Part shown: one piece after another, positions 32,272 through 48,164 of the stretch
Position numbering within the stretch: position 1 is the first letter of the stretch
How the letters are laid out: every line of letters begins with the position of its first letter
NCBI GenBank assembly: GCA_029564595.1
Contig: JAKQPS010000051.1
Location: forward strand, 47,895 to 111,894
Length of the DNA stretch: 64,000 nt
Source of the DNA: a bacterium
GTDB lineage: Bacteria; UBP15; UBA6099
Reading direction: 5' to 3'
Notes under the pieces: model-generated
The model's input: only the letters and a program-made list of their open reading frames with translations
What the model was told of the DNA's origin: nothing
Databases searched by the model: none
Program-made: the position numbers and the translations under genes

Positions 32272-32427
32272 CATTGCTCCCCATACAATATGATGACAAA
32301 GTCAATAATGGCCATTTCGAGGCGAATATGGTTATAATTTGATATTAAAAGACTAATTCTTAAATATGCGTAGGATAACGACTGATATGGCCGAATATCG
32401 CTAATTTATTTATTTTTTGGGAAGTGG

Positions 32428-32456
32428 TTGACAAGGTTTTTTTTTTGACATACGAT
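32428..32456 (+). promoter_or_regulatory. sigma70-like promoter of the dcw cluster
   Basis: A perfect TTGACA (-35, 32428-32433) is spaced 17 bp from TACGAT (-10, 32451-32456). Predicted transcription start is near 32463, about 130 bp before mraZ. It is the best promoter in the window and fits the position of Pmra in other bacteria. Confidence 0.7.
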
Positions 32457-32467
32457 AGCAGTACCTG

Positions 32468-32517
32468 AAAGTGGGAATATATTTAGTTGAAATTTATATA
32501 AAATACAAAAAGTGGGA
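32468..32517 (+). promoter_or_regulatory. two AAAGTGGGA boxes, candidate MraZ operators
   Basis: The identical 9-mer AAAGTGGGA occurs at 32468-32476 and 32509-32517, 41 bp apart, just after the predicted transcription start. A weaker GAAGTGGTT overlaps the -35 at 32421-32429. Known MraZ proteins bind repeated TGGGN (E. coli) or AAAGTG-type (Mollicutes) boxes in their own promoter. Spacing here is larger than the roughly 10 bp usually seen, so this is a prediction. Confidence 0.55.
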
Positions 32518-32595
32518 AAAGTTTAATATCAAATCGCGGGGTTGTCAAGAAGAGAAACAACCTCGCGGCTCGAAGGCCTCTAAAAGGAAAAGAGC

Positions 32596-33294
32596 ATGAT
32601 AAGCCTGAACTTCGGCGGAGAACATAAGAACACAGTGGATGCCAAGTATCGCTTGAGCATTCCCTTCAGGTTCAGGGAAAAGCTCGAGATGCGCGAGCGG
32701 ATAGAGGATGAGAAGCGGCTGGACGAGAGAAGGCGGGCGGCGGAAGGCGGAACGCTCGACGATATAAAGGAATATATAGAGAAAGCAATCGGCAGAGAGA
32801 TTGAAAAGGCGTCGGTTCCGGCAACGGGGGCGGAGAAAAAGAAATCGTCCGCAAAAGAGGAAGGCGACGAGAAGAAGTCCGGGCAGCGGGTGTGGATGAC
32901 CAAGGGGCTTGAGCCGCCGGTCAAGAAGCCGCTCGACGACAAGAAAACTAAATACGAAGTCATTCTGAAGCAGTTTATATGGTGTCTGCCGCCTGATGTG
33001 TTCGACAGGCTTGTGACCGCGATAGACGGGTTGCCGAAGAATGAAGCGACGATAGAGTTGAGGAATCATCTTATCAGGAGCGCGCACGAGGTGGAACTGG
33101 ATCAAGGCGGAAGGGCGTTGCTGCCGCAGCAGTTGAGGTCTTACGCGGGGATAGGGACTGGCGAAGTGATAATGGTGGGAGACGGGGCGACGTTCCAGTT
33201 GTGGTCGAAGAAGAACTACGAGCAGCTTGTGGACACCAGAGGGCGCGAAGAGCAGATATTCGCCACATACACTGAAAGCGGGATAAGCATCTGA
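32596..33294 (+). CDS. mraZ: MraZ transcriptional regulator with large internal insertion
   Basis: MraZ is the AbrB-like DNA-binding regulator that opens dcw clusters. This one has 232 residues against about 145 normally. The first half-domain starts canonically (GGEHKNTVDAKYRLSIPFRFREKL, positions 7-30 with the D-x-K/G-x-R core). It is then interrupted by about 85 highly charged residues (about 33-117) before its remaining strand KYEVILKQFIWCLPPDVFDRL. The second half-domain (HEVELDQGGRALLPQQL, 164-180) is uninterrupted. The insertion is Lys/Glu-rich and helical, followed by a Pro-containing linker. AAGGAAAAG precedes the ATG. The reading frame is continuous, so this is an insertion and not a fusion error. 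Confidence 0.88.
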   Translation: MISLNFGGEHKNTVDAKYRLSIPFRFREKLEMRERIEDEKRLDERRRAAEGGTLDDIKEYIEKAIGREIEKASVPATGAEKKKSSAKEEGDEKKSGQRVWMTKGLEPPVKKPLDDKKTKYEVILKQFIWCLPPDVFDRLVTAIDGLPKNEATIELRNHLIRSAHEVELDQGGRALLPQQLRSYAGIGTGEVIMVGDGATFQLWSKKNYEQLVDTRGREEQIFATYTESGISI

Positions 33295-33320
33295 CGCCGG
33301 CGAAACGGGCGCGAGGCGAT

Positions 33321-34271
33321 TTGGAAGACAAATCTGAACATGTGTCCGTTTTACTGGAGGAAACAATAGAAGCGCTGTCTGTGAAGCCGGACGGAGTGTA
33401 CTGCGACGCGACAGCGGGAAAGAGAGGAGGTTTCGCAAAAAAAATTTTAGAGAAGCTCGCGACGGGGATGGTTGTGGGATTGGACGCGGACCCCGAAGCG
33501 GTTGAAAGCCTCAAGGCGGACATCGGCGGCGACCGGAGAGCGAGGATATACAGGGCGAATTTCCGGGATATGCGGGAGTTATGGGAAGAGGAAGGGCTGC
33601 CGGGTCTGGACGGAGTGGTGATGGATCTGGGGCTTTCGACCGAACAGTTGGCGGATCCGAGGCGTGGGTTCTCTTTCAGTTCGGACGGTCCGTTGAACAT
33701 GAAATACTGGGCTGACGGACCCGGACCGACGGCGGCGGACATAGTGAACGAGGCCGCCGAGGAAGAGCTGACGGAGATGTTTTTCCGGTGGGGAGAGAGA
33801 CACGCTCGGAGGATAGCCAGAGGGATATGCGACGCGAGGCGCTCCGGAAGGATAGAGACGACGGGGCGGCTGGCGGAGGTGGCGAGGAAGTCGGCGCCGC
33901 CGGCGCGCGGAGGAAGAGACGCAAGCACGCTGGTTTTTCTGGCGTTGAGAGCCGAGGCGAACCGCGAACTGGAAGCGGTGGAAAAGGGAGTCAGGGCGGC
34001 GGTGGACTTGATGAATCCGGGCGGAGTTCTGTGCGTGATAACTTACCAGAGCGCCGAGGACGGACTTGTGAAGCGACTGACGCGGAAGATGGCGAGGGGT
34101 TGCCGTTGCGACGAGGAGAGAGAGAGTTGCGTTTGCGGCGAAGGGACAGCCGGCATAGAGTTGGTTAATAAAAAAGTGATAGTCCCGTCGAAAGAAGAAA
34201 TCGCCCGCAACAGGCGGGCGAGGTCGGCGAAGTTAAGGATAGTGCGGAAACTTACAAAGGAGCCGCAATGA
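33321..34271 (+). CDS. rsmH: 16S rRNA (cytosine-1402-N4) methyltransferase
   Basis: A 316-residue SAM-dependent methyltransferase (MraW) that modifies C1402 in the ribosomal P site. Motifs: HVSVLLEETIEAL, CDATAGKRGGFAKKIL (SAM loop), GLDADPEA, MDLGLSTEQLADPRRGFSF and DGPLNMKYW. The C-terminal block RNRRARSAKLRIVRK is typical. The SAM-loop variant AGKRGG replaces the usual TGGGGH. The only in-frame start is TTG at 33321, with GAGG 4 bp upstream; the ATG nearby is out of frame. The stop overlaps the ftsL start as ATGA. Confidence 0.93.
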   Translation: MEDKSEHVSVLLEETIEALSVKPDGVYCDATAGKRGGFAKKILEKLATGMVVGLDADPEAVESLKADIGGDRRARIYRANFRDMRELWEEEGLPGLDGVVMDLGLSTEQLADPRRGFSFSSDGPLNMKYWADGPGPTAADIVNEAAEEELTEMFFRWGERHARRIARGICDARRSGRIETTGRLAEVARKSAPPARGGRDASTLVFLALRAEANRELEAVEKGVRAAVDLMNPGGVLCVITYQSAEDGLVKRLTRKMARGCRCDEERESCVCGEGTAGIELVNKKVIVPSKEEIARNRRARSAKLRIVRKLTKEPQ

Positions 34272-34684
34272 AGAACGATCGAATCAAACAACAGGGCGCG
34301 AACGTGATTAACAGGGGGCCGGGCGCGCATCACGCCGGAACATGGGTGAACAGCAAGAAGATAGCATTCTACACAATAATAATTGCTCTCGGAATGACGG
34401 CCATGGGCGTGTATGCATTGCATTTGAAGATAGACATCGACCGAAAATACATTCTAATTGACGAATACAAAATGAAAAATAACAAGTTAGACGTCGAGAT
34501 TAGAAAACTCGAAGCGCAGGTCGATGGTCTGAGATCCTACAAGCGGATACAAGAAACGCTGTCGAGCGCCGGATATGAGATGAGTGTGCCGGCGGAGGCT
34601 TTGTACTTGAAGCTGAACGACGAGCAGAAGACGGCGTTGAGAACCGAAGGCGAAGCGCAAAGGGCCAGAGCGGGAATATTCTAG
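34268..34684 (+). CDS. ftsL: FtsL-like single-pass divisome protein
   Basis: A 138-residue bitopic protein in the ftsL position between rsmH and ftsI. A basic N-terminus of about 30 residues precedes a membrane span (about 32-52, IAFYTIIIALGMTAMGVYAL). A coiled coil of about 50 residues follows (DEYKMKNNKLDVEIRKLEAQVDGL region). FtsL sequence is poorly conserved, so the call rests on architecture and locus. FtsL joins FtsB/DivIC and FtsQ to activate FtsWI. Confidence 0.75.
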   Translation: MKNDRIKQQGANVINRGPGAHHAGTWVNSKKIAFYTIIIALGMTAMGVYALHLKIDIDRKYILIDEYKMKNNKLDVEIRKLEAQVDGLRSYKRIQETLSSAGYEMSVPAEALYLKLNDEQKTALRTEGEAQRARAGIF

Positions 34685-34717
34685 CAGCCGGCGCCGCCTT
34701 CATGAAAAGGTGAAGGC

Positions 34718-36481
34718 ATGGGCCGGTCCCCTATAACACAGACCAACAGAAAAAGAATACACAACGTCCTTATCATGCTCGTCGTGGCCCATTTTTTCAT
34801 GGTCGCGAGGGCGATTTATGTCGAGTTGTGGCATGGCGACGACCTGCGCGAACGCAGGCTTGTGCAGTCGAAGCGGATAGTTCCTCTGCACGCGCGGCGA
34901 GGCATGATTCTGGATAACGAAGGCAACAAGCTTGCTGTTGACGTGCCGTACATGTCCATCTACGCGCACCCTTCGGAAATAACAAATCACGACGAATACG
35001 TGGAAAAACTCAGCGGCCCTCTCGGAATGAGCGGCGACGATGTCAGAAATCTGATATCGGATCCGGAGAAGAACAGTGTTTGGCTGGTCAGACACGTGTC
35101 GGAGAAAACGGCTGACGCGGTGAAAGAGCTGAACCTGAGAGGGATAGGTTTTTCTAGGGATTCCAAGAGGTATTATCCGCACGCTCAGACGGCGATGCCG
35201 GTGGTCGGGCTTCTGGGCGAGAGCGACGGGCTGACAGGCGTAGAGTTCATATTCAACAAGCAGTTGAAAGGCGAGAACGGCTATGTGGTTCTTGAGAGGG
35301 GACTCGGCGGCATCAATGTGCCGGATTCCACGCGCGAACTAAAACCGGCGAAGAACGGCGAGGACGTGCACCTGACGATCAATCTTGCCGTCCAGCACTT
35401 TGTGTACGACGCGCTCGAGCAGGCTGTGAACAAGTTCGGAGCTAAAGCCGGAAGCGCGATCGCGATTCAGCCGAAGACGGGGCGCATCCTCGGAATGGCG
35501 TCTTACCCGGTGTGCGATCCGAACGATTTTAAAAAATGCCCGCAAGAGACGTACAGGAACCGAAGCATAGGGGTTATTTACGAAATAGGAAGCTGCATGA
35601 AGCCGATTGTGGTTGCGGCGGCGATAGATAAAGGGATTGTGGACCCGTACGCCAAGAAGATTCTCTGCGAGGACGGCATGAGGGTGGGAGGGTATAACAT
35701 CCGCGAGGCGCACGGGGTTGGACTGCCCGCGTATTTAAGCCCGTACGACATCGTGATTCATTCGTACAATTCCGGCACGGCGAGAATCGGTCTGATGATG
35801 GGCAAGGAAATGCAAAGAGAAACTTTTCTGAGATTCCATTTCGGCAAGGCTTTCAGAGGGCTGGGGCTGAACAATCAGCAGAACGGGCTTTTGGCGCCGA
35901 TGGCAGAGGTGAGAGACTCGACCATCGCGACGAACTCGTTCGGGCACGGTATAGGAGTGACGCAGTTGCAGATGGCGGTTGCGATGGGCGCGTTGTGCAA
36001 CGGCGGAATGCTGATGAACCCGACGGTTATCGAGAAAGTGGTGGACTCGGAAGGCAATGTGGTCAGCTCTTTCGAGCCGAAGCCGATACGTCGCGTGATA
36101 AAGGAAGACACGGCGAAGTTGATGAGGACGATGCTTGTGGGGGCGGTGGAAGAGGGGACGGGAAAGGCGGCGAGGATTCCGGGATACGCTGTGGGCGGGA
36201 AGACCGGGACGGCTATCATGCCGAGGACGGACGGAAGAGGATACACGCGAGACGTCGTGTCGTCATTCGTCGGGTTCGCGCCAGCGGAGAATCCAGAAAT
36301 TCTTGTTATGGTGACGATAGAGCGACCGCAGAGGGGGCTGGGATACTACGGCAGTCAAGTCGCGGCTCCGGCGGCGGGCGAGATAATGAAAAAGGCGCTG
36401 TGGCGGATGAATGTTCCGCCTGCGGACATCGAGGGCGGAATGTACGGTTTTCAGCCGGATACGGAGATACCGAATGATTGA
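34718..36481 (+). CDS. ftsI: penicillin-binding protein, septal transpeptidase FtsI/PBP3
   Basis: A 587-residue class B penicillin-binding protein that cross-links septal peptidoglycan. A membrane anchor lies at about 15-35. The pedestal domain starts with RGMILDNEGNKLAVD. Catalytic motifs are S292-C-M-K295 (YEIGSCMKP), S349-Y-N351 (HSYNSG) and K495-T-G-T (GGKTGT). The third residue block YEIGS replaces the usual YEPGS. It overlaps murE by 8 bp. Its partner is FtsW, encoded downstream. PASTA repeats as in Gram-positive SpoVD are absent. Confidence 0.94.
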   Translation: MGRSPITQTNRKRIHNVLIMLVVAHFFMVARAIYVELWHGDDLRERRLVQSKRIVPLHARRGMILDNEGNKLAVDVPYMSIYAHPSEITNHDEYVEKLSGPLGMSGDDVRNLISDPEKNSVWLVRHVSEKTADAVKELNLRGIGFSRDSKRYYPHAQTAMPVVGLLGESDGLTGVEFIFNKQLKGENGYVVLERGLGGINVPDSTRELKPAKNGEDVHLTINLAVQHFVYDALEQAVNKFGAKAGSAIAIQPKTGRILGMASYPVCDPNDFKKCPQETYRNRSIGVIYEIGSCMKPIVVAAAIDKGIVDPYAKKILCEDGMRVGGYNIREAHGVGLPAYLSPYDIVIHSYNSGTARIGLMMGKEMQRETFLRFHFGKAFRGLGLNNQQNGLLAPMAEVRDSTIATNSFGHGIGVTQLQMAVAMGALCNGGMLMNPTVIEKVVDSEGNVVSSFEPKPIRRVIKEDTAKLMRTMLVGAVEEGTGKAARIPGYAVGGKTGTAIMPRTDGRGYTRDVVSSFVGFAPAENPEILVMVTIERPQRGLGYYGSQVAAPAAGEIMKKALWRMNVPPADIEGGMYGFQPDTEIPND

Positions 36482-38006
36482 AAAAAAATTATCAAGTCTT
36501 TTGACGGGAGTGGAGCATCAGATTGCGGGAGGCTCCCCGGACGCGATTGTGACGTCCGCCGCGTATGATTCGAGAGAGTGTTCTCCGGGATGCGTTTTCT
36601 TCTGCGTGCCGGGATACAGCGTGGACGGGCACGATTTTGCGCCTGAGGCGATATCGCGAGGGGCCGCCGCGCTGGTGGTCGAGCGGGACGTGCCGGCTCC
36701 GCCGGACGTGGCGGTGATAAAGACTCCGGACGCAAGGCTGGCGATGGCGCTGATTTCCGCCGCGTTTTACGGTTTGCCGTCTAGCAAAATCAAACTCGCC
36801 GGGGTGACCGGTACGAACGGCAAAACGAGCGTGGCGTATCTGATAGACGCGCTTCACCGGCAGGCGGGAATCGCCGGCGGGCTTATCGGCACGGTGGAGA
36901 ACAGGGTGGCCGACGTTTCTCTGAAAGTGAAGCGGACCACTCCCGAATCCATGGACCTTCAGGCGTTGCTGGCCATGATGGCTGACAAGGGAGTCGAGCG
37001 GGCGGTGATGGAGGTTTCGTCTCACGCCCTGAAACTGTCGCGGGTCGCGGGTTGCGAGTTCAGTTCGGCGATATTTACCAACCTCACGAGAGACCACCTC
37101 GATTTTCACAAGGACGAAGAGGACTACTTCGAGGCTAAAAGGCTGCTGTTCTCCGAGCATCTGGCGGAGGGCGGGCCTGCTTTGCTTAACAGCGACGATC
37201 CGATGTCGGCGCGCATCGCAAAAACGCCGGGGCTGAGAGTGGTCAGATACGCGGTTGACGATCCCGAAGCCGAGGTGCGGGCGACGGGCGCAAAGCACGC
37301 TCAAGACGGAATAAGCTACCGAATAGAGTCGCCTTTTGCCGCAACGTTCGAAGTGAGAACGAAGCTGATGGGCGGGTTCAACGCGTACAACACGCTGGCG
37401 ATGGCGGCGTATGGACTGACGGCCGGATTTTCCCCGGAGGACATACAGGCGGCGCTGGAGAGTTTCAAAGGCGTGCCGGGCAGGTTCGAGAGGGTAGACG
37501 CCGGCGGGCCGGTGGGCGTGTACGTGGACTACGCGCATACCCCACACGGTCTGGAAAACATATTGAAATCCGCGCGCGAGATATGCAAGGGCAGGCTGAT
37601 AGCGGTGTTCGGATGCGGCGGAGACAGGGACAAGACGAAGCGGGCTTTGATGGGCGGGATTGCGGCTGAGTTGGCGGATGTGGTTTGGGTGACGAACGAC
37701 AACCCCCGCACGGAGGAGCCGCACAGGATAATTGACCAGATAACGCTAGGGATTGAGCAAGCGTTGATAAAACTGGACCGCTCAAGGCAGTTCAGGTATC
37801 ACGTCGAGCAGGACAGGTTCGCCGCCATTAAGAGGGCGATTGCCTGCGCCGCGCCGGGAGATGTCGTGGTTATCGCTGGAAAGGGACATGAAACGGAGCA
37901 GATATATAAAGACAGAGTGATTCATTTCGACGACAGGGAAGTGGCGGGAAATATTTTGAGGGAGATGGCCGGCAGTGGAGTCGACGCCGATTGCGAAGCT
38001 GATTGA
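36474..38006 (+). CDS. murE: UDP-MurNAc-tripeptide ligase MurE
   Basis: A 510-residue Mur ligase that adds the third amino acid to UDP-MurNAc-L-Ala-D-Glu. The ATP loop is GTNGKTS (113-119). TTPESMDLQALL and EVSSHALKLSRV bind substrate and metal. The selectivity motif is DNPRTEEP: an arginine in DNPR is characteristic of meso-diaminopimelate-adding enzymes, whereas lysine-type enzymes lack it. The start at 36474 overlaps the end of ftsI and is preceded by GGAGATACCGA. This predicts A1-gamma type peptidoglycan, consistent with dapA in the window. Confidence 0.95.
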   Translation: MIEKKLSSLLTGVEHQIAGGSPDAIVTSAAYDSRECSPGCVFFCVPGYSVDGHDFAPEAISRGAAALVVERDVPAPPDVAVIKTPDARLAMALISAAFYGLPSSKIKLAGVTGTNGKTSVAYLIDALHRQAGIAGGLIGTVENRVADVSLKVKRTTPESMDLQALLAMMADKGVERAVMEVSSHALKLSRVAGCEFSSAIFTNLTRDHLDFHKDEEDYFEAKRLLFSEHLAEGGPALLNSDDPMSARIAKTPGLRVVRYAVDDPEAEVRATGAKHAQDGISYRIESPFAATFEVRTKLMGGFNAYNTLAMAAYGLTAGFSPEDIQAALESFKGVPGRFERVDAGGPVGVYVDYAHTPHGLENILKSAREICKGRLIAVFGCGGDRDKTKRALMGGIAAELADVVWVTNDNPRTEEPHRIIDQITLGIEQALIKLDRSRQFRYHVEQDRFAAIKRAIACAAPGDVVVIAGKGHETEQIYKDRVIHFDDREVAGNILREMAGSGVDADCEAD

Positions 38007-39357
38007 ATGGAGCGGCGGGCGGCTCGAGCGCGGAAGCGCGTCGGGGATCGCCGTTGCGGTTGAGACGGACAGCAGGCGCGATTGCGCAGGGGCTGTGTTC
38101 GTTCCGCTGGTCGGGGAGAAGTTCGACGGCCACGAGTTCATCGCCTCGGCGGCGGCGAGAGGCGCGGCGGGATGCCTGACGTCAAAAGAGATTCCCGGCG
38201 GGCTTCCTGAAAGCTTCGCGGTGATAAGAGTCGCTGACACGCTGAAAGCGTATCAGGCGATGGCGAGGGGATATAGAAGGGCTCTGCCCGCGAAGGTGGC
38301 GGCGATAACGGGAAGCTGCGGCAAGACGACGACGAAGAACATGCTGGCTAACGCGTTAAGCCGGAAAAAGATTACGAAGACGGAAAAGAACGAAAACAAT
38401 GAGGTGGGAGTTCCGCTGACTTTGTTGAGGATGGACTCGACGACGGAAATAGTTGTGCTCGAATTCGGAATGAGGGGCAGAGGGCAGATAGCCGAACTGG
38501 CTGAAATCGCGGAACCGGAGCTTGGATTGATAACAAATATTGAAGCGTCTCACATCGGAATCCTCGGATCTATGGAGGCTATATGCGACGCGAAGGGGGA
38601 GCTTCTTGAGAGGCTTCCCGCGCGCGGGACGGCCGTGTTGAACGCGGACAGCGAGTGGTTCGACAGGCTCGCAAAGAAGACGTCGGCGCGGATAGTTTCT
38701 TTCGGAATGGAAAAGGGCGACTACAGGGCGGCGGGCGCGAAGATGAGGCTGGACGGAGCGAGTTACACTTTGGAAACGCCGTTCGGCAGAATGGAAATCG
38801 AATCTTTGCTGACAGGCCGGGGGGCGATAATCAACGCGGCTGCGGTGGCGGCGGCGGCGATGGAGCTTGGTGAGCCGCTTGACGCGGTCGCGGAAGGTCT
38901 GTCGATGGACATCGGAGAGGCTGGACGCATGAGGCGGGTCGGAACGGCGGACGGCAAGTTGCTTATTGACGATACTTATAACTCCTCGCCGGCGTCGCTG
39001 GCTATGACACTGGAGCTTTTGGGGACGGTGGAGTGGAGCGGGCGCAGGGTGGCCGCGCTTGGAGACATGAAAGAACTGGGAGCTTTCAGCCGCGACGAAC
39101 ATTTCAGAATAGGAAGGGATTTCGCGGCTAAGAGCGCCGACGCTCTCGTGACGGTCGGCTCCGAGGCCAAAGCCATAGCGGAAGGGGCGTTGTCCGCCGG
39201 GATGCGAGAGGACGGCGTCGCGGCGTTTGAGACGTTCGAAGAGTTTGCGGAATCCGGGGCCGGACTGTTCGGGCCGGGGGACCTCGTTCTTGTGAAAGGT
39301 TCGCGCGCGATGGGAATGGAGCGGGTCGTGAAATTTATCGAGGAGGCGTCAAAATGA
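37975..39357 (+). CDS. murF: UDP-MurNAc-tripeptide--D-Ala-D-Ala ligase MurF
   Basis: A 460-residue Mur ligase that completes the pentapeptide. The ATP loop is ITGSCGKTTTKNML, with Cys where Asn or Ser is usual. The neighbouring block EKNENNEVGVPLTLL and DDTYNSSPASLAMTLE are standard MurF signatures. The start is a GTG 32 bp inside murE, with GGGAG about 10 bp upstream; this long overlap implies coupled translation. The stop overlaps the mraY start as ATGA. Confidence 0.95.
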   Translation: MESTPIAKLIEWSGGRLERGSASGIAVAVETDSRRDCAGAVFVPLVGEKFDGHEFIASAAARGAAGCLTSKEIPGGLPESFAVIRVADTLKAYQAMARGYRRALPAKVAAITGSCGKTTTKNMLANALSRKKITKTEKNENNEVGVPLTLLRMDSTTEIVVLEFGMRGRGQIAELAEIAEPELGLITNIEASHIGILGSMEAICDAKGELLERLPARGTAVLNADSEWFDRLAKKTSARIVSFGMEKGDYRAAGAKMRLDGASYTLETPFGRMEIESLLTGRGAIINAAAVAAAAMELGEPLDAVAEGLSMDIGEAGRMRRVGTADGKLLIDDTYNSSPASLAMTLELLGTVEWSGRRVAALGDMKELGAFSRDEHFRIGRDFAAKSADALVTVGSEAKAIAEGALSAGMREDGVAAFETFEEFAESGAGLFGPGDLVLVKGSRAMGMERVVKFIEEASK

Positions 39358-40328
39358 GTCTTCTGGCGTCCGCCGGTCTGGGATTCGCGCTGTGCTTGGG
39401 GTTTACGCGGCTTTGGATGGTCGTGCTCGCCAAGTGGAAGATGCGGCAGGTGATAAGGACCGACGGGCCTGAGTCGCACCTGAAGAAGAGCGGGACGCTG
39501 ACGATGGGCGGCGTGGCGATGTTCGCGGCGTGGTCGGTAGCGACGGCTGTCGCGTCGAACGCGGCAGACGTAAAAATCCGGGCGTTGTTCATAATAGCGG
39601 CGACGAGTTTTGCCATAGGGTTCATAGATGATTTTGCGAAATTCAGAGGAAAGAAAACTGAAGGTCTCAAGGCTCGATACAAAATACTTATTGAAATAGC
39701 GATGGGAGCGTTTCTGGGAGCGTTTGTTATCTGGCACGCGGATGTTTGTTGGGGGCCGGGAGCGACGATTGCCACAACAATCTGGACTCCGAAATGGTTC
39801 GGAGAATTGAACGCGGGCGTTCTGTTTATTCCGTTCGTCATAGTCGTTTACATCGGCACGATAAACGCCGTGAATTTGAACGACGGTCTGGACGGTCTGA
39901 TGTCGGGCTGCGTCGCCGTCGTGCTGGCCGCGCTGGGGTTTTTCATAAGCAAATACGGGGACAGGACTCTGCTTCCTCCGATAGCGGCTCTTATCGGAGT
40001 TCTGGCGGGTTTTTTATGGTTCAATACGCATCCGGCAAAGATTTTCGCGGGCGACACCGGCTCATTGTTTCTGGGCGGAGCGGTGGCGGCGGTGGCTGTT
40101 ATGGCGAGGCTGGAGTTGTTCCTTGTCGTTGCGGGGGCGGTCCTCGTGCTGGAGGCGCTTTCGGTGATTCTTCAGGTCGGGACGTTCAGGCTGACGGGCA
40201 AGAGACTGCTGCCGATGGCGCCCCTGCATCATTCTTTTGAAAAAATCGGATGGAGCGAACCGCAGATTGTAGTGAGGTTCTGGATAGTGTCATGCGCGTT
40301 CGCGGCGGTAGCGATATGGATGTTCTAG
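39354..40328 (+). CDS. mraY: phospho-MurNAc-pentapeptide transferase MraY
   Basis: A 324-residue polytopic enzyme that makes lipid I on undecaprenyl phosphate. The substrate motifs TMGGVAMF, NLNDGLDGLMSG (catalytic Asp pair region), NTHPAKIFAGDTGSLFLGG and PLHHSFEKIGWSE are intact. The N-terminus is short and begins directly with a membrane span. It overlaps murD by 13 bp. Confidence 0.96.
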   Translation: MSLLASAGLGFALCLGFTRLWMVVLAKWKMRQVIRTDGPESHLKKSGTLTMGGVAMFAAWSVATAVASNAADVKIRALFIIAATSFAIGFIDDFAKFRGKKTEGLKARYKILIEIAMGAFLGAFVIWHADVCWGPGATIATTIWTPKWFGELNAGVLFIPFVIVVYIGTINAVNLNDGLDGLMSGCVAVVLAALGFFISKYGDRTLLPPIAALIGVLAGFLWFNTHPAKIFAGDTGSLFLGGAVAAVAVMARLELFLVVAGAVLVLEALSVILQVGTFRLTGKRLLPMAPLHHSFEKIGWSEPQIVVRFWIVSCAFAAVAIWMF

Positions 40329-41722
40329 GAGTCAAAGCCTTGAAGGGTCTGCGCAAGGGGAAAGACGCGGCGCGGGGCGCTCGCGTTATGGTCGTCGGAA
40401 CGGGAGTGACCGGTCTTGCGTGCGCGCGGGCTTTGCCTAAGTTCGGGGCGGAGACGATAGTGACCGATCTTAAAGGCGGGCAGTCTCCCGCCGACAGGGA
40501 GACCATTGCAAGAATTGAGGAGGCGGGGGCGAAGTATCTTCCGCTTTCCGAGGCCGAAGGGGTAGCCGCGGACGCGTTGGTTCTGAGTCCGGGCATTCCT
40601 ACAGACGACGAAAGATTGATTGAGCTTAAAACGAGGGCAGGGGCATGGATGTCGGAGATCGAGTTGGCTTACATGCTCTGCGAGGGAAGAATTCTGGCTG
40701 TGACGGGAACGAATGGAAAAACCACGACGGCGACGCTGGCAGGCCGGATACTGTCGGACTGTTTCGATGACACGAGGGTGGCCGGGAACATCGGCGACGC
40801 GTTCATCGAGGCGGCGGAGGGAAGCGGGCCGGGGACGGTTTTCATTATCGAGGTCAGTTCCTACCAGTTAGAGGGTTGTTTCAGTTTCAGGCCGGATGTC
40901 GCGATAGAGCTGAATGTTCAGCCGGATCATCTTAAGAGGCACGGGACGATGTCGGCGTACGCGGCGGTCAAAGCGAGACTGCTGACGCGAATGACGGAGA
41001 GCGGGACGGCTGTTCTGAACGCGGACGACATGCTGGTGGCGGCGATGGCGAAGGGAACGCGTGCCGGGATATTGAACTACAGCGTCGAGAGGGAGCTTGA
41101 GCGTGGGGCGTTTTTGAGAAGCGGGCGGATGGTTCTGCGGATGGGCGGCGAGGAAGAAATTATCGGCGACGCAGGCGAAATGAAAATCAGGGGGCCGCAC
41201 AACGAGGGGAACGCTATTGCGGCTGCCGTGGCGGCGCGGGCGATGGGCGCTCCGGCGGAAAATATACGAAAAGCCCTCAAGGATTTCGAAGGGCTGAAGC
41301 ATAGGATTGAAACAGTGGGATTCGCGCGCGGAGTGGAGTGCGTAAACGACAGCAAGGCGACGAATCCTGACTCTACACGGGCGGCTTTGAAGATGTTCGC
41401 GGGCCGAGCGGTCACATTGATTATGTGCGGAGACGACAAGGGATTCGACTATGGCGGCCTGTACGCGGACATCGAGGCGGCGGGCGCGAAGGTGATAGTG
41501 ATAGGAGCCGGGCTAGCGCGGGTGGCAGACGAGCTTGAAGCTCGCGGCGCCACGGATGTGGCGCGGGCGGCGGATATGGCTTCGGCGGCGAGGATCGGGC
41601 TTGAGATGACGCCGGAGGGCGGCGCGCTCCTGCTGTCTCCGGGGTCTTCGTCTTTCGACATGTACAAAAACTACGAGGAGCGGGGAGAAGATTTCAGGAA
41701 TGAGATCAGACTTGCGGAATGA
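40316..41722 (+). CDS. murD: UDP-MurNAc-L-alanine--D-glutamate ligase MurD
   Basis: A 468-residue Mur ligase. An N-terminal Rossmann block (VMVVGTGVTGLACARAL) is followed by AVTGTNGKTTTATL (ATP loop), VAGNIGDAFIE and EVSSYQLEGCFSF. DSKATNPDSTRAAL and LIMCGDDKGFDYG mark the C-terminal domain. The ATG at 40316 lies inside the mraY end; an open frame further upstream is not supported. The stop overlaps ftsW by 23 bp. Confidence 0.95.
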   Translation: MDVLGVKALKGLRKGKDAARGARVMVVGTGVTGLACARALPKFGAETIVTDLKGGQSPADRETIARIEEAGAKYLPLSEAEGVAADALVLSPGIPTDDERLIELKTRAGAWMSEIELAYMLCEGRILAVTGTNGKTTTATLAGRILSDCFDDTRVAGNIGDAFIEAAEGSGPGTVFIIEVSSYQLEGCFSFRPDVAIELNVQPDHLKRHGTMSAYAAVKARLLTRMTESGTAVLNADDMLVAAMAKGTRAGILNYSVERELERGAFLRSGRMVLRMGGEEEIIGDAGEMKIRGPHNEGNAIAAAVAARAMGAPAENIRKALKDFEGLKHRIETVGFARGVECVNDSKATNPDSTRAALKMFAGRAVTLIMCGDDKGFDYGGLYADIEAAGAKVIVIGAGLARVADELEARGATDVARAADMASAARIGLEMTPEGGALLLSPGSSSFDMYKNYEERGEDFRNEIRLAE

Positions 41723-42968
41723 CAACAAGCGAAGGGTTCCGCCGCCGGTGACGCAGGTCGCCGCCGACACTGGCAACCTGAGCAGGTCGCCTGATTTTCC
41801 GATTCTCGTGATAAGCGTGCTTCTCACCTGTTTCGGGATAGTGATGGTCACGGCTGCGTCTGGGCTTTTCACTCTGGGCAAACAGGGCGCTGGCATGAGC
41901 TATCTGAGCAGGGAACTTTACGGCGTCGTCGTCGCGTGGGGCGCGATGATATTCACCGCCTGCATAGACTACCGCGCCTATAAAAAACTTGCCATCCCGA
42001 TAGCCGGGGCGGCGGTTTTCGCCCTCCTTCTCGTTATGATTCCCGGCTTGGGCGCGGAGATTAACGGAGCGCGCAGATGGATTAAACTAGGCGGGTTCAT
42101 GTTTCAGGCCGGAGAGCTTGCGAAGATAGCGGTGATAATAATCGTCGCCGTGATTCTGTCCGAGATGAACGACAAGATAGGGGATATTAGGACGTTGGGA
42201 ATGGTGTACGCGGTTGTGGGCGGAGCGGCGGTTCTGCTGATGTTGCAGCCGGATTTCGGAATGACAATCCTGATAGCGGTAGTAGTGACGGCGATGCTGT
42301 TCATTGCGGGCGCGAAGCCGCTCCATCTCGGCGGGGTTGGAATTTTGGGAGTCGCTTTCTGTGTTTTCTTCATCTTCACTGAGGAATACCGCAGACAGCG
42401 CATATTGGGTTTTTTAAATCCTTATGAAAACGCGAGCGATTCGGGATATCAGGTTTTGCAGTCTCTGATAGCGGTAGCGAGCGGCGGCTTTTTCGGGCGC
42501 GGTCTAGGGGAGAGCAGGCAAGTGTCTTTCCTGCCGCAGTTCAACACGGACTTTATCATCAGCATAACGATAGAACAACTCGGGATAGTGACTTTGTTCA
42601 TTGTAGTGTGCCTGTTCGCGGCTTTCACGTACAGGGGATTTAAGATCGCGTCGAGATGCGTGGATCCCTTGGCGTCTTATCTGGCTTTCGGGATAGTGTT
42701 TATGATATCGATTCAGGCTCTTATGAATATCGCCGTCGCGCTGGGATGCATGCCCGTGACCGGGCTGACTCTGCCGTTCATCAGCTACGGAGGAAGCTCG
42801 TTGATGATGCTGTGCGCGTCGGTGGGGATACTATTGAATATATCGATGCATTCGATGGCGACGACCGGGAGGCGAAATGAAAAGGTTTGTGGAAGCGGTT
42901 GGGGGGACCGGAGGCCACCTGTACGTGGCGGTAGCCCTAGCGCTTCATTACCGCCGAACCGAACCTGA
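41700..42968 (+). CDS. ftsW: SEDS glycosyltransferase FtsW
   Basis: A 422-residue SEDS protein with about 10 membrane spans that polymerises septal glycan from lipid II in complex with FtsI. Signature blocks: GLGAEINGARRWIKLG, LLQPDFG-like MLQPDFGMTIL, PYENASDSGYQVLQS, FLPQFNTDFIISITIEQLG and GLTLPFISYGGSS. After the last span the frame runs into a basic Gly/Pro/Arg-rich tail of about 30 residues that lies entirely over the murG start, so the two genes overlap by 92 bp. The tail is probably not conserved. Confidence 0.94.
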   Translation: MRSDLRNDNKRRVPPPVTQVAADTGNLSRSPDFPILVISVLLTCFGIVMVTAASGLFTLGKQGAGMSYLSRELYGVVVAWGAMIFTACIDYRAYKKLAIPIAGAAVFALLLVMIPGLGAEINGARRWIKLGGFMFQAGELAKIAVIIIVAVILSEMNDKIGDIRTLGMVYAVVGGAAVLLMLQPDFGMTILIAVVVTAMLFIAGAKPLHLGGVGILGVAFCVFFIFTEEYRRQRILGFLNPYENASDSGYQVLQSLIAVASGGFFGRGLGESRQVSFLPQFNTDFIISITIEQLGIVTLFIVVCLFAAFTYRGFKIASRCVDPLASYLAFGIVFMISIQALMNIAVALGCMPVTGLTLPFISYGGSSLMMLCASVGILLNISMHSMATTGRRNEKVCGSGWGDRRPPVRGGSPSASLPPNRT

Positions 42969-43989
42969 TGTCGAAGTGACGATATCGGGAAGGGGCGGCG
43001 GAGGAGAAGAGAAGGCTGTCGCGGCCAACGGGCTGCGTTTCGCGTCCGTGCGGACGGTGAAGCTGCCGCAGAAAAAGATTTCTCTGGAAACCGCGCTGTT
43101 TCCGGCGAGGCTGTTGGCGGCTGTGGCGGACGGGTGGAGGCTTCTCGGCGAACTGAAACCGTCTGTCGTGGCTGGGTTCGGAGGGTTCGGCTCGTTCCCG
43201 GTTGTGACGGCGGCCCGGTTAAGAGGCATTCCAGTTTATCTGCACGAACAGAACGCGCTCATGGGGCTGGTGAACAAGGTGGCGGCGAGGTTCTCGGAAA
43301 AGGTGTTTGTCAGCTACGAGGAGACGGAAGGCTGCCCTAGAGCGGACATGCTGTTCGTGGGGAATCCGAGCAGGTTCGAGGGAGTCGAAAAAACAGGGAA
43401 GTCGGCGGCGCGCGCCGCTCTCGGTCTGGACCCGGAGAAATGGACGCTGTTTTCATTCGGCGGCAGCCAAGGCGCAAGATCAATAAATAAAGCGATGCGG
43501 GAGTGGATCAGAATAAACAGGGACAAGAGAGACATGCAGGCGATACATCTGGCCGGGCGCGGGAATTTCGAAGAGACGCGCCGCGAGTTTGCGGAGGCGC
43601 TCGGAGAAGGGGCCGCGCTCCGGGTCGAGGCGCGCGACTATCTCGAAGAAATGAATCTGGCGTACGAGGCGGCTGACCTGACGATTTGCCGGGCCGGGGC
43701 GACCAGCATCGCGGAACTGACTTCGCTCGGCGTTCCGGCTCTGCTCGTGCCTTATCCGTTCGCCACCGGCAATCATCAGGAGAAGAACGCGCGGCGCGCG
43801 GCGGAAGCCGGAGCGGCTTTGATGGCTCTGGACTCCGAGCTTGACGGCAACTTGCTCCACACTATCGTCGAAGGATTGAAAAGCGACCCCGGCAAGCTTG
43901 AAGAAATGTCGCGCAAGTCGCGCGCGATGTACAAAGAAGGCGCCGCCGCCAAGATGGCAGAGCATATTTCAGCTCGCTTGAAGGCGTGA
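42877..43989 (+). CDS. murG: UDP-GlcNAc:lipid I N-acetylglucosaminyltransferase MurG
   Basis: A 370-residue GT28 enzyme that converts lipid I to lipid II. The start is close to the first glycine loop (GGTGGHLY at 9-16), so the ATG at 42877 fits the family start. VVAGFGGFGSFPVVTAA, PVYLHEQNALMGLVNK, SFGGSQGARSINKAM, ICRAGATSIAELTSLGVPALLVPYP and GNHQEKNA follow. In the usual order murC or murB comes next; here the next gene is ftsQ, 14 bp downstream. Confidence 0.95.
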   Translation: MKRFVEAVGGTGGHLYVAVALALHYRRTEPDVEVTISGRGGGGEEKAVAANGLRFASVRTVKLPQKKISLETALFPARLLAAVADGWRLLGELKPSVVAGFGGFGSFPVVTAARLRGIPVYLHEQNALMGLVNKVAARFSEKVFVSYEETEGCPRADMLFVGNPSRFEGVEKTGKSAARAALGLDPEKWTLFSFGGSQGARSINKAMREWIRINRDKRDMQAIHLAGRGNFEETRREFAEALGEGAALRVEARDYLEEMNLAYEAADLTICRAGATSIAELTSLGVPALLVPYPFATGNHQEKNARRAAEAGAALMALDSELDGNLLHTIVEGLKSDPGKLEEMSRKSRAMYKEGAAAKMAEHISARLKA

Positions 43990-44003
43990 AGGAGGAGATC
44001 GAA

Positions 44004-44786
44004 ATGACGGTCCAACCTGATCCGAATGTTCAGTCAACTCTCAAACGAGAGAGAATCAGGCGCGTGAAGGTCAGAAGAAGAAGGACGCTTCTAATCGCGT
44101 TCATACTGCTTTTTTCCAGCCTGTTTGTGATAAACAGCGAGCCTTTCAAGGTGAAGATTATTGAAGTGTCCGGAGCCAAGAGGACTAGCGCGGAGGAAGT
44201 GTATAAAAGATCGGAAATCGAGATCGGCGAGAGTCTTGTGACCCTTCCGGTCGGCGAGATAAGGGGCCGCATTAAAGACAAACAGCCGCTTGTGAAAGAG
44301 GCGGAAGTGCGAAGAGAACTGCCTTCCCGCGTTCACATAAAGATTTATGAGCGGGAGCCGTTTGCTTACGTGTCGGATTCGTTGGGGGAAAATGTGTATC
44401 TGATAGACGCGGAGAGGTTTGTGCTGGAGAAACCCAAAGGCATCGCCGACCCGAAAATATTCCATGTGGTCAGCGACGGAGTGCAGCATGCCGAAGTCGG
44501 CGAAATTCTGGAGTTCCCTTTCCATGATTCTTTCGCGAGGATTTGCGATTCGCTCGAACGGGCTTTGCACGGAAAATACTCGAAGCTGGTGTTTAATTTC
44601 GGCGGGATAAAACTTTTTCTGAACGACGGCTCGTACGTGATGCTAGGGGACAAACCGGACGATGACATCGAGAAAAAAATATTGCTGATCCCGGTGATCG
44701 CCAAAGAACTGAATGAAAGAAAACTGAAGTTTGCCGGACTGAACTTGTCGGAGCTTGCGGTTCCGACGTATGTGAAAGCCGAATAA
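44004..44786 (+). CDS. ftsQ: FtsQ/DivIB divisome protein
   Basis: A 260-residue bitopic protein. A very basic N-terminal tail (RRVKVRRRRTLL) precedes a membrane span (about 27-44). A POTRA domain follows (IIEVSGAKRTSAEEVYKRSEI ... VHIKIYEREPFAYV) and then the beta domain with FGGIKLFLNDGSYVMLG. I chose the ATG at 44004 because AAGGAGGAG lies 6 bp upstream; a GTG at 43986 overlaps murG but lacks a site. FtsQ bridges FtsBL with the early divisome. Confidence 0.9.
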   Translation: MTVQPDPNVQSTLKRERIRRVKVRRRRTLLIAFILLFSSLFVINSEPFKVKIIEVSGAKRTSAEEVYKRSEIEIGESLVTLPVGEIRGRIKDKQPLVKEAEVRRELPSRVHIKIYEREPFAYVSDSLGENVYLIDAERFVLEKPKGIADPKIFHVVSDGVQHAEVGEILEFPFHDSFARICDSLERALHGKYSKLVFNFGGIKLFLNDGSYVMLGDKPDDDIEKKILLIPVIAKELNERKLKFAGLNLSELAVPTYVKAE

Positions 44787-44797
44787 GGGGACGCGGT

Positions 44798-45379
44798 TTG
44801 ATTCTAAGAAGAGCGTTAATGACATTGATGGCGGTGTTCGCGGGGTTGTGCCTCGGAGCGATGTCTTCGGGCAAATGGCCCGATGTCGAACTCGGATTGG
44901 CGGGGGCCGCCATTGAAAGCGAGAGCGATCTCGAAAGATTCGACGGACATTCGCCAGTGACCGGGCCGGGGATAAGGGTGACGGTTGAGGACGGGATTGC
45001 GGACGGAGCGGCTACGATGGACAGGCTCATCGTCCACGAGAGGGATTTATTGCTGTTGCGCAATGAACTCTTCGCGGCCGGAGCCACGGCGGTCTCGATA
45101 AACGGCCACCGGATGGTGGCGAACAGCGTGATCAGGTGCGTCGGGCCGACGATAAGGATAAACGATGCGCACACCGCTCCGCCATACGTGGTGGATGCGG
45201 CGGGCGACCCGGATGTTTTAAAACCTGCCATCACCATGATGGGCGGAGTGGTCGATCTGATGTCGTCGGAAAAACTAAAAGTAAACGTCGAGACGGTCGG
45301 GAAACTGACCATCCCGGCGCATGAGTCGGCAAAGCGGAGAGAGGAAAAGGCTCCGGAGCGGGAAAAGAAAAATGATTGA
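44798..45379 (+). CDS. DUF881 family protein (YlxW/YlxX-like)
   Basis: A 193-residue DUF881 protein with a short N-terminal membrane segment. The family blocks TGPGIRVTVEDG, IVHERDLLLLRNELFAAGATAVSINGHRM and RCVGPTIRINDAHTAPPYVVDAAGDP are clear. In Firmicutes, one or two members sit between divIB (ftsQ) and sbp, exactly as here. The start is TTG at 44798 with AAGGGG upstream. The predicted coiled coil before the domain is shortened. Its role in division is not known. It overlaps sbp by 8 bp. Confidence 0.85.
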   Translation: MILRRALMTLMAVFAGLCLGAMSSGKWPDVELGLAGAAIESESDLERFDGHSPVTGPGIRVTVEDGIADGAATMDRLIVHERDLLLLRNELFAAGATAVSINGHRMVANSVIRCVGPTIRINDAHTAPPYVVDAAGDPDVLKPAITMMGGVVDLMSSEKLKVNVETVGKLTIPAHESAKRREEKAPEREKKND

Positions 45380-45692
45380 AACTATTGCTGGAATAGCTGT
45401 CGGCTGGCTCGTGGGAGCCAAGTTCGGATTCGGGCTTGCGAACGCCGAAGGCCTGATCGCGCTCATAGCGTTTCTGGCGGTAGTGGACGAGCTTGCGGCC
45501 GCCCTTGCGGATAAGCAAAGGAAAATCGTGTCAGGTCTTTTGCGCAAAGGCATCTTCTGCTGGGGCGCTGTGGCGGTGGAAAGAATGACCGGCGCGCCGC
45601 TGGGCGCTATCGCCTCCGCGGTTCTGATTCTATCGATATTCAGAAATCTCGTGTGGAGGCCGTCGTCGGTACGGGGGCGGGAGGCATGGTGA
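45372..45692 (+). CDS. sbp: small basic membrane protein Sbp (DUF1290)
   Basis: A 106-residue protein with three hydrophobic segments, matching the DUF1290 family (B. subtilis sbp). Typical blocks are IAGIAVGWLVGAKFG and LIALIAFLAVVDELAAAL. The ATG lies inside the DUF881 end, and its stop overlaps the ftsA start. Function unknown; its place directly before ftsA-ftsZ is conserved in Firmicutes and related lineages. Confidence 0.85.
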   Translation: MIETIAGIAVGWLVGAKFGFGLANAEGLIALIAFLAVVDELAAALADKQRKIVSGLLRKGIFCWGAVAVERMTGAPLGAIASAVLILSIFRNLVWRPSSVRGREAW

Positions 45693-46933
45693 ACAAGGAT
45701 AATAAAAACATAATATCGGCTCTGGATGTCGGCACGTCCAAGACGGTGGCTCTTATCGCCGAATTGAAGGACGGCGGAGCGTTCGAGATTGTCGGATTCG
45801 GTTCCGCCGCAACGGAAGGTGTGAAAAAAGGCGTTATCGTAAGCCTCGACAAGGCGTCCGAGGCCATGCATCTGGCGGTGGACGCCGCCGAAAAAATGGC
45901 CGGACGCATTATTGAATCCGCTGTCGTCGGAGTCTCAGGCAACAGTCTGGCTTCGAGCGAGCAGCACGGAGGCGTCGCGGTGGCCGACCCTGAAAGAGGC
46001 GTGAGCGCTGATGACATGCGACGCGCCGCCGAGGCCGCTAAAACGATTCTTCTACCTCCGGACAAACAAGTCATCTGCACTATCGAGATGGACTACACGG
46101 TGGACAACCATTCCGGCATAAAGGACCCGCGCGGGATGTCAGGTTCCCGGCTAGGCGCAGATGTTCAGATCGTGACAGGCTCGACCGCGATGACTCAGAA
46201 TCTCATGCGGTGTCTGATGAAGCTTGAGATCGGGATCGACGCTCTGGCTCCGACTCCGTTCGCTGCCGGGGAGGCCGTGCTTAACGAAGACGAAAAGGAA
46301 ATCGGAACAGTAATCGTGGACATCGGGGCGGGCACGAGCGGCATCGCTGTTTTCAAAAGCGGCGTCCTGCGAAAAGTAAAAGTGTTCCCCGTCGGAGGCT
46401 GGAACTTCGACAACGACATAGGGATTGTGCTCGGCGCGTCCACGCGGGAGGGCGAGCGTCTCAAGATAGAGAGCGGCATCGCCTATGTGGACGACCGCGT
46501 CGGCAGCGAACCGGTGAAAATTGAGCACGTGAGCGGTGAAAAGGAACAGCAGGTGACGCGCGGAATGTTGTGCCAGATCATCCACGCGCGCGCGATGGAT
46601 TTAATGAAGATGATAAGGCACGAGTTAGAAACAGACATGCCGATATCGGTTGTCCCGGCAGGGGTCGTTCTCACAGGGAACGGCGCGCTGCTCGAAGGAA
46701 TTAGGGAAGTGGCTGAACAGGCGATTGGAATGAACGCCCGGGTGGGAAAACCCAGATATTCAGGTCCTCACTCCGATCTTGTGTCGGAGCCGGGATACGC
46801 CGCCGCGCTCGGTCTGCTCGCGCACGCGGCTCGGCTGCGCTCTATTTCCGGCGCGCGCCGCTCGGACGCCGCGTCTTCTTCGGCTCTAATAAGATCCGTC
46901 GCGGGATTTTTCCGCGGCCTGTTCAATAAATAA
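45686..46933 (+). CDS. ftsA: cell division protein FtsA
   Basis: A 415-residue actin-fold protein that anchors FtsZ to the membrane. The phosphate 1 loop is [15 protein letters not shown] and phosphate 2 is [15 protein letters not shown]. The SHS2 (1C) domain follows the first lobe ([22 protein letters not shown]). The C-terminus [16 protein letters not shown] is the amphipathic membrane-targeting helix. Start ATG 45686 overlaps sbp by 7 bp; a GTG at 45689 is better spaced from GGGAGG and is a possible alternative. FtsA and SepF in one cluster give two FtsZ anchors. Confidence 0.95.
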
Positions 46934-46958
46934 AAAAGGAATCAATGGGGGGAACGAT

Positions 46959-48164
46959 ATGAATTTTGATCCGATGATAGAGAAACAAGCGGCCATCAAG
47001 GTTATCGGCGTGGGCGGAGGCGGCTGCAACGCCGTCAACAGGATGATTCAGATGAGCGTGCCCGGCGTCGATTTCATCGCGGTGAACACTGATATTCAGG
47101 CTCTCGACAGGAGCCGCGCGCAACAGAAATTACAACTCGGCGGCAAACTTACCCGCGGGCTTGGAGCCGGGGCTGACCCCGAAATCGGGCGCAAGTCCGC
47201 CGAGCAGAGCGCGTCCGAAATCGAAAACATGCTCGAAGGCGCGGACATGGTTTTCGTCACCGCCGGTATGGGCGGCGGAACCGGAACCGGCGCCGCTCCA
47301 GTAGTCGCTCAGGTCGCCCGTAGCCTTAAAGCCCTGACCGTCGGAGTTGTGACAAAGCCGTTCGCGTTCGAAGGCCGCAGACGCATGAAGTCCGCAGAGA
47401 TGGGCATCGAGCGGCTGTCGGAATTCGTCGACACTCTGCTGGTCATACAGAATGACCGCCTGTTGAAAATAATCAAAGAAGACACCTCGATGACGGAGGC
47501 TTTCGCCAAGGCGGACGACGCTCTGCGCTGCGGCGTTCAGGGCATTTCGGACCTTATCACCGTGCCGGGAACAATCAATCTGGACTTTGCGGATGTTCGA
47601 GCGATTATGTCGGACGCCGGCTCCGCTTTCGTGGGAATCGGCAGAAACAGCGGAGACGACCGCGCGCGCCGCGCCGCGGAAGAAGCTATCTCTAGCCCGC
47701 TGCTGGAGTACTCCATTGAAGGCGCAAAAGGAATAATCATCAATATCACGGGCGGCTCGGACATGAACATCGGCGAGATCAACACCGCAGCCGAAATCGT
47801 GAGGACCGCCGCCGCAGACGACGCCAACATCATCTTCGGCGCGGTGATAGACGACAGGGCAAGGGAAGAGTTGAGGGTGACCGTTGTGGCAACCGGCTTC
47901 ACTCAGGGCGCGCAAAAAATGGAATGCGCGCAATCAGAAGAGAAACCGGTTTCCGCCGCGGAAGCCGGAGAGCCGTTTGCCGCTCGGCAACAGCAGCAAT
48001 CTCAGGCCCCGAAAGCACAGGCGCAAGCTCCGCAGCCTGCGCGGCAGCAGTCTCCCGGCGAACTGCCTTTAGACCGCCCGGCTTCTCCGCCGACTGCCCC
48101 GGAGACCAAGCGCGTGGAAAAGGAAACGGATTTGGATTTGCCTCCTTTCCTGAGAAACAAATAG
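46959..48164 (+). CDS. ftsZ: cell division GTPase FtsZ
   Basis: A 401-residue tubulin homologue that forms the Z ring. The tubulin signature is [10 protein letters not shown] (105-114). VNTDIQAL and [11 protein letters not shown] (T7 loop, with the catalytic Asp) are present. A Gln/Ala/Pro-rich linker of about 65 residues leads to the conserved tail [11 protein letters not shown], which binds FtsA and SepF. GGGGGGAACGAT precedes the ATG. Confidence 0.97.

Follow-up and report, generated by a model that had tools for sequence, protein, structure and literature searches.

The window analysed here is a 64,000-nucleotide stretch of UBP15 bacterial DNA in which a 232-aa ORF encodes a genuine MraZ, a transcription factor. 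MraZ is among the most widespread bacterial regulators and its length is normally rigid. In this locus mraZ is the first gene of a dcw cluster with normal gene order, and it is the only gene with PF02381 in the window genome. The coordinates of the gene, its parts, its neighbours and its upstream elements are collected in Table 1. An antisense open frame of 297 aa also runs across mraZ (32545-33438, minus strand). It is open in loci L002 and L003 and unlisted in L004, and is probably a by-product of codon usage.

Table 1. Features of the mraZ locus, with positions given in the window
Feature	Position	Strand	Basis or remark
Candidate sigma-70 promoter, TTGACA-17-TACGAT	32428..32456	+	Assigned only from the consensus; conserved in four genomes
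MraZ box 1, AAAGTGGGAA	32468..32477	+	Conserved in four genomes
MraZ box 2, AAAGTGGGAA, 41 bp from box 1	32509..32518	+	Conserved in four genomes
mraZ	32596..33294	+	232-aa ORF; MraZ by Pfam PF02381
Half-domain 1, first part (residues 1-30), GEHKNTVDAKYRLSIPFRFREKL	32596..32685	+	HMM domain 1, positions 1-28; alignment A1
Insert 1 (residues ~31-97)	32686..32886	+	HMM and A1; borders approximate
Core strand RVWMTKGLEPP (residues 98-108)	32887..32919	+	A1; counterpart of LVxTRGLD in other MraZ
Insert 2 (residues ~109-125), in beta-hairpin, VKKPLDDKKTKYEVILK	32920..32970	+	A1; borders approximate
End of half-domain 1 and entire half-domain 2 (residues 126-232)	32971..33291	+	Pfam, residues 160-215; HMM domain 2
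mraW (rsmH)	33321..34271	+	Next dcw gene; named from translation
ftsL, ftsI, murE, murF, mraY, murD, ftsW, murG, ftsQ, ftsA, ftsZ, in this order	34268..48164	+	Remaining dcw genes; named from translations

Family membership was analyzed with Pfam, NCBIfam, our own HMM built from the MraZ proteins of the fetched loci and an alignment of 27 MraZ proteins (A1). Pfam recognized MraZ with 58.3 bits against a cut-off of 23, in two stretches of which the one at residues 160-215 was the best, and both PF02381 half-domains were found. Both half-domains also aligned in our HMM and in A1. The invariant family columns G8, D15, R19, R173 and W203 are retained, and the DNA-loop residues D15, R19, D169 and R173 fall in invariant or nearly invariant columns of the alignment. 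With the NCBIfam MraZ models the match was split in two stretches and stayed under the cut-offs (59.5 against 98.35 bits for TIGR00242). Outside the order, searches with TIGR00242 gave matches in 229 genomes (80 + 73 + 76), and 112 of them also missed the cut-off or nearly so, which makes it a poor test in distant phyla.

The residues lying beyond the HMM were measured in 122 unique proteins. Members of the genus carry 80 such residues (79 in one member), the sister genus G004 carries 16, G005 from another family of the order carries 6, and all others have at most 4. The HMM match in the window protein is broken into positions 1-28 and 32-129. According to the HMM and A1, the excess consists of two inserts, of about 65 and about 17 residues, which flank the strand RVWMTKGLEPP and whose borders are accurate to a few residues on either side. 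The original prediction of a long insertion in half-domain 1 was right as to its presence, with about 80 extra residues, though these form two inserts and not one of about 85. Its placement between the DNA-contacting strand and the packing strand proved too simple, since helix 1 (FREKL) precedes the long insert.

Insert 1 is composed of a charged, helix-like extension of helix 1 (residues 31-50), an amphipathic segment (53-72) and a loose K/E/S linker (76-97). Its predicted charged nature was confirmed, residues 28-94 being the most charged 67-residue stretch (57% D/E/K/R) among the 69 open frames of at least 200 aa in the window. The pattern of i/i+3/i+4 salt bridges in residues 26-50 was marginally enriched (16 versus 11.6 in shuffles, p 0.056), and residues 53-72 are amphipathic with muH up to 0.49. 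AlphaFold, given the window protein with three relatives nearly identical to it, drew helices at 26-50 and 54-72 in agreement with this sequence pattern; at a mean pLDDT of 38.9 the model is unusable and its helices carry no weight alone. The sequence suggests that helix 1 continues as a charged helix, with the amphipathic segment next and then a flexible linker which would lead back to the core strand. Elsewhere in the window, an FtsK/SpoIIIE-like protein (52008-54401) has a highly charged linker with 55% D/E/K/R across 67 residues. Such linkers are usual in the FtsK/SpoIIIE family.

Each of the four genomes of the genus has an intact ORF with both inserts. The genus belongs to the little-studied candidate phylum UBP15, with bacterium ADurb.Bin236, isolate USCA_metabat.19_sub and UBP15_UBA6099 as its named records. 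The order comprises seven genomes in four genera. At the site of insert 1, the MraZ of G004 reads FREKL-KEREKLFSSESASSQDPDST, with about 15 extra residues that appear to form a small helix extension and a linker, and this is consistent with a stepwise growth of the insert. The MraZ of G006, from the same order, has no insert of note. When genome span was compared with model span outside the order, none of the 229 genomes had more than about 15 extra residues and none had a comparable insert. The positive controls of this comparison behaved as expected: in the four genomes of the genus (G000-G003) the beginning of the match was lost, and G004 showed about 21 extra residues. A few partial matches, among them G072, G087, G195 and G307, come from open frames of 67-163 aa, which are too short to hold such an insert. 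More MraZ sequences were sought in viral contigs and none was found there, and no description of an MraZ with an insert of this kind turned up in the literature searched. The large-insert MraZ is a real and rare form restricted to one genus. This agrees with the unusual form originally supposed, and the two objections raised along with it, misassembly with relatives lacking the insert and wide sharing of the insert among MraZ proteins, did not materialize.

The lack of most of the insert in the sister genus might hint at an assembly error, a repaired frameshift or an inserted mobile element. However, the insert is intact in four genomes representing at least three separately deposited MAGs, its frame and codon pattern are kept, and its sole change of length is one codon. 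Its DNA gives one strong match per genome with no dispersed copies and has no Rfam match. As three other MAGs carry the insert, an assembly error is untenable, and an artefact or a mobile origin of any kind is vanishingly improbable. Two neighbouring genes gave no sign of a general inflation of proteins in the genus: in G000, G004 and G005, respectively, MraW has 316, 309 and 322 aa and FtsL has 138, 136 and 133 aa. The insert was also considered as a structured RNA and rejected as such (fold z -1.9, no Rfam match).

Selection on the inserts was estimated from four close genomes with a synonymous change of about 0.20 per site over the tree, the expected number of amino-acid changes being computed from the synonymous rate of the gene. 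The helical part (residues 31-75) showed 1 change versus about 21 expected and insert 2 showed none versus about 8, while the linker (76-97) had 4 versus about 10 along with one codon indel. The core residues 126-232 had 1 change versus about 50. Compared with the core, the linker is looser (p 0.001) and the helical part is indistinguishable (p 0.41). Purifying selection acts on the helical portion of the insert, whereas the K/E/S linker is loose. Synonymous changes were also fewer in the insert DNA (32686-32970), with 4 at 54 sites versus 26 at 97 sites in the rest of mraZ (p 0.005), so a constraint on DNA or RNA could explain part of the amino-acid conservation. Nearly neutral growth of loops without any function of their own would fit the location of the inserts, the loose evolution of the linker and the fact that sister genera manage with 0 to 16 extra residues. 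The near absence of changes in the helical part and in insert 2 speaks against this, and we consider it unlikely. Since the helical part is selected, it probably has some mild and local function.

The two upstream AAAGTGGGAA boxes are perfect and exactly 41 bp apart with no box in between, and the pair occurs once in the genome. A motif AAAGTG[T/G] is reported for MraZ of Mollicutes (PMC8475190) and a site of the form (AAAGTGKN3)3 for MraZ (PMC5282649). The boxes agree with both, and the promoter of mraZ itself carries repeats of the GTG type, with an atypical spacing. The overlap of the boxes with the promoter region suggests autoregulation of the operon by MraZ. A third, weaker box-like sequence, GGGAAGTGGTT (32418-32428), lies directly ahead of the -35 element and reads GAAGTAG in G002. 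The spacer between the -35 and -10 elements (32434-32450) contains a long T run kept in all four genomes.

Of 117 other mraZ promoters analysed, 86 had GTG[GT] pairs spaced by 10 bp and 72 had pairs spaced by 20 bp, with lesser rises at 30-31 and 41 bp. A 41-bp pair without inner box was found in two of them, those of G004 and G006 (the latter checked by eye), both from the same order, while the promoter of G005 has a single box. The two-box layout thus occurs in three of the four genera of the order versus none of the 115 other promoters, in a comparison which was framed after seeing the data and which treats promoters as independent. As 41 bp makes four turns, both boxes would face the same side of the DNA, as in the usual 10-bp lattice minus its inner repeats. 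In an octameric ring with each subunit reading a single repeat, the two boxes would be contacted by subunits on opposite sides.

This wide pair with nothing between, set against the prevailing 10-bp arrays, raises the idea that the arm makes a second DNA contact or bridges the boxes. But the same layout is found in G006, which has no insert, and in G004 with only 16 extra residues, which means that such an operator can do without the arm. Since G006 combines the 41-bp operator with an insert-free MraZ, a coupling of the two is rejected, and the operator either predates the insert or is independent of it. The insert is also charge-balanced: the helical part has a net charge of -3, the linker one of +1 and the hairpin one of +3. 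This mixture of acidic and basic residues does not favour the second DNA or RNA contact that had been proposed. An arm contacting or bridging DNA is very unlikely. A changed role in DNA binding is disfavoured by a box that is standard and conserved and by a spacing that insert-free G006 shares.

The closest known systems are the MraZ proteins (PF02381, TIGR00242), such as that of Mycoplasma pneumoniae (PDB 1n0e) and the newer entries 9qlg, 9qlr and 9sx6. With them the window protein has in common two half-domains with loops of the DxKxR type, the first position in dcw and upstream boxes of the AAAGTGG type. It differs in the residues added after helix 1 and in the next hairpin, so that it reaches 232 aa while the solved chains have 149-166 aa, and in the 41-bp spacing, known MraZ having 10-bp tandem repeats. 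In the alignment with 1n0e, the insert sites lie between LRAFFE and GSIVINRG and in the hairpin RGFENCLEV. G004, a sister genus of the same family, has a 171-aa MraZ (L005) with 44% identity to the window protein over the second part. It is similar in its short extension of helix 1 with a linker at the same site and in its GTGG boxes 41 bp apart, and differs in the low number of extra residues, the absence of a hairpin insert and one more box 10 bp on.

The DNA-reading loops, the box sequence and the gene context are ordinary, and the novelty is the presumably exposed and partly conserved arm. The best explanation, to which we give a probability of about 60%, is an ordinary MraZ autoregulator with a genus-specific exposed arm that leaves DNA recognition intact and has a mild local role, likely in ring packing. 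MraZ would most likely bind the two boxes at its own promoter and regulate the dcw cluster like other MraZ proteins, its half-domain 1 having probably grown the arm and the longer hairpin as two appendages within the genus. Both inserts are located in loops distinct from the DxKxR loop that reads the DNA, hence the arm most likely stands out from the ring. There it would most likely pack on a neighbouring subunit or stabilize the ring.

The arm could instead be a docking site for another protein, such as RNA polymerase or a part of the divisome, making MraZ a signal-responsive switch. The amphipathic segment TLDDIKEYIEKAIGREIEKA with its flexible linker resembles a tethered binding helix and the helical part is conserved, but no partner was identified, the insert matched no family in Pfam and NCBIfam, and it is restricted to one genus. 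Docking is thus a tentative possibility, and a local structural role in the ring is favoured both over it and over neutrality. A bolder and rather doubtful proposal sees in the conserved helical arm a new functional module, a ring staple or docking helix, within a phylum whose MraZ would recognize two operator boxes set exactly four helical turns apart, perhaps through two opposite subunits of one ring or through two rings.

Neither the insert nor the operator alone changes the picture of dcw control. Relatives with no, short and long inserts offer a ready series for testing the tolerance of the MraZ fold and ring, and the fixed 41-bp two-box operator of the phylum is a test of whether the ring can work without adjacent 10-bp repeats.
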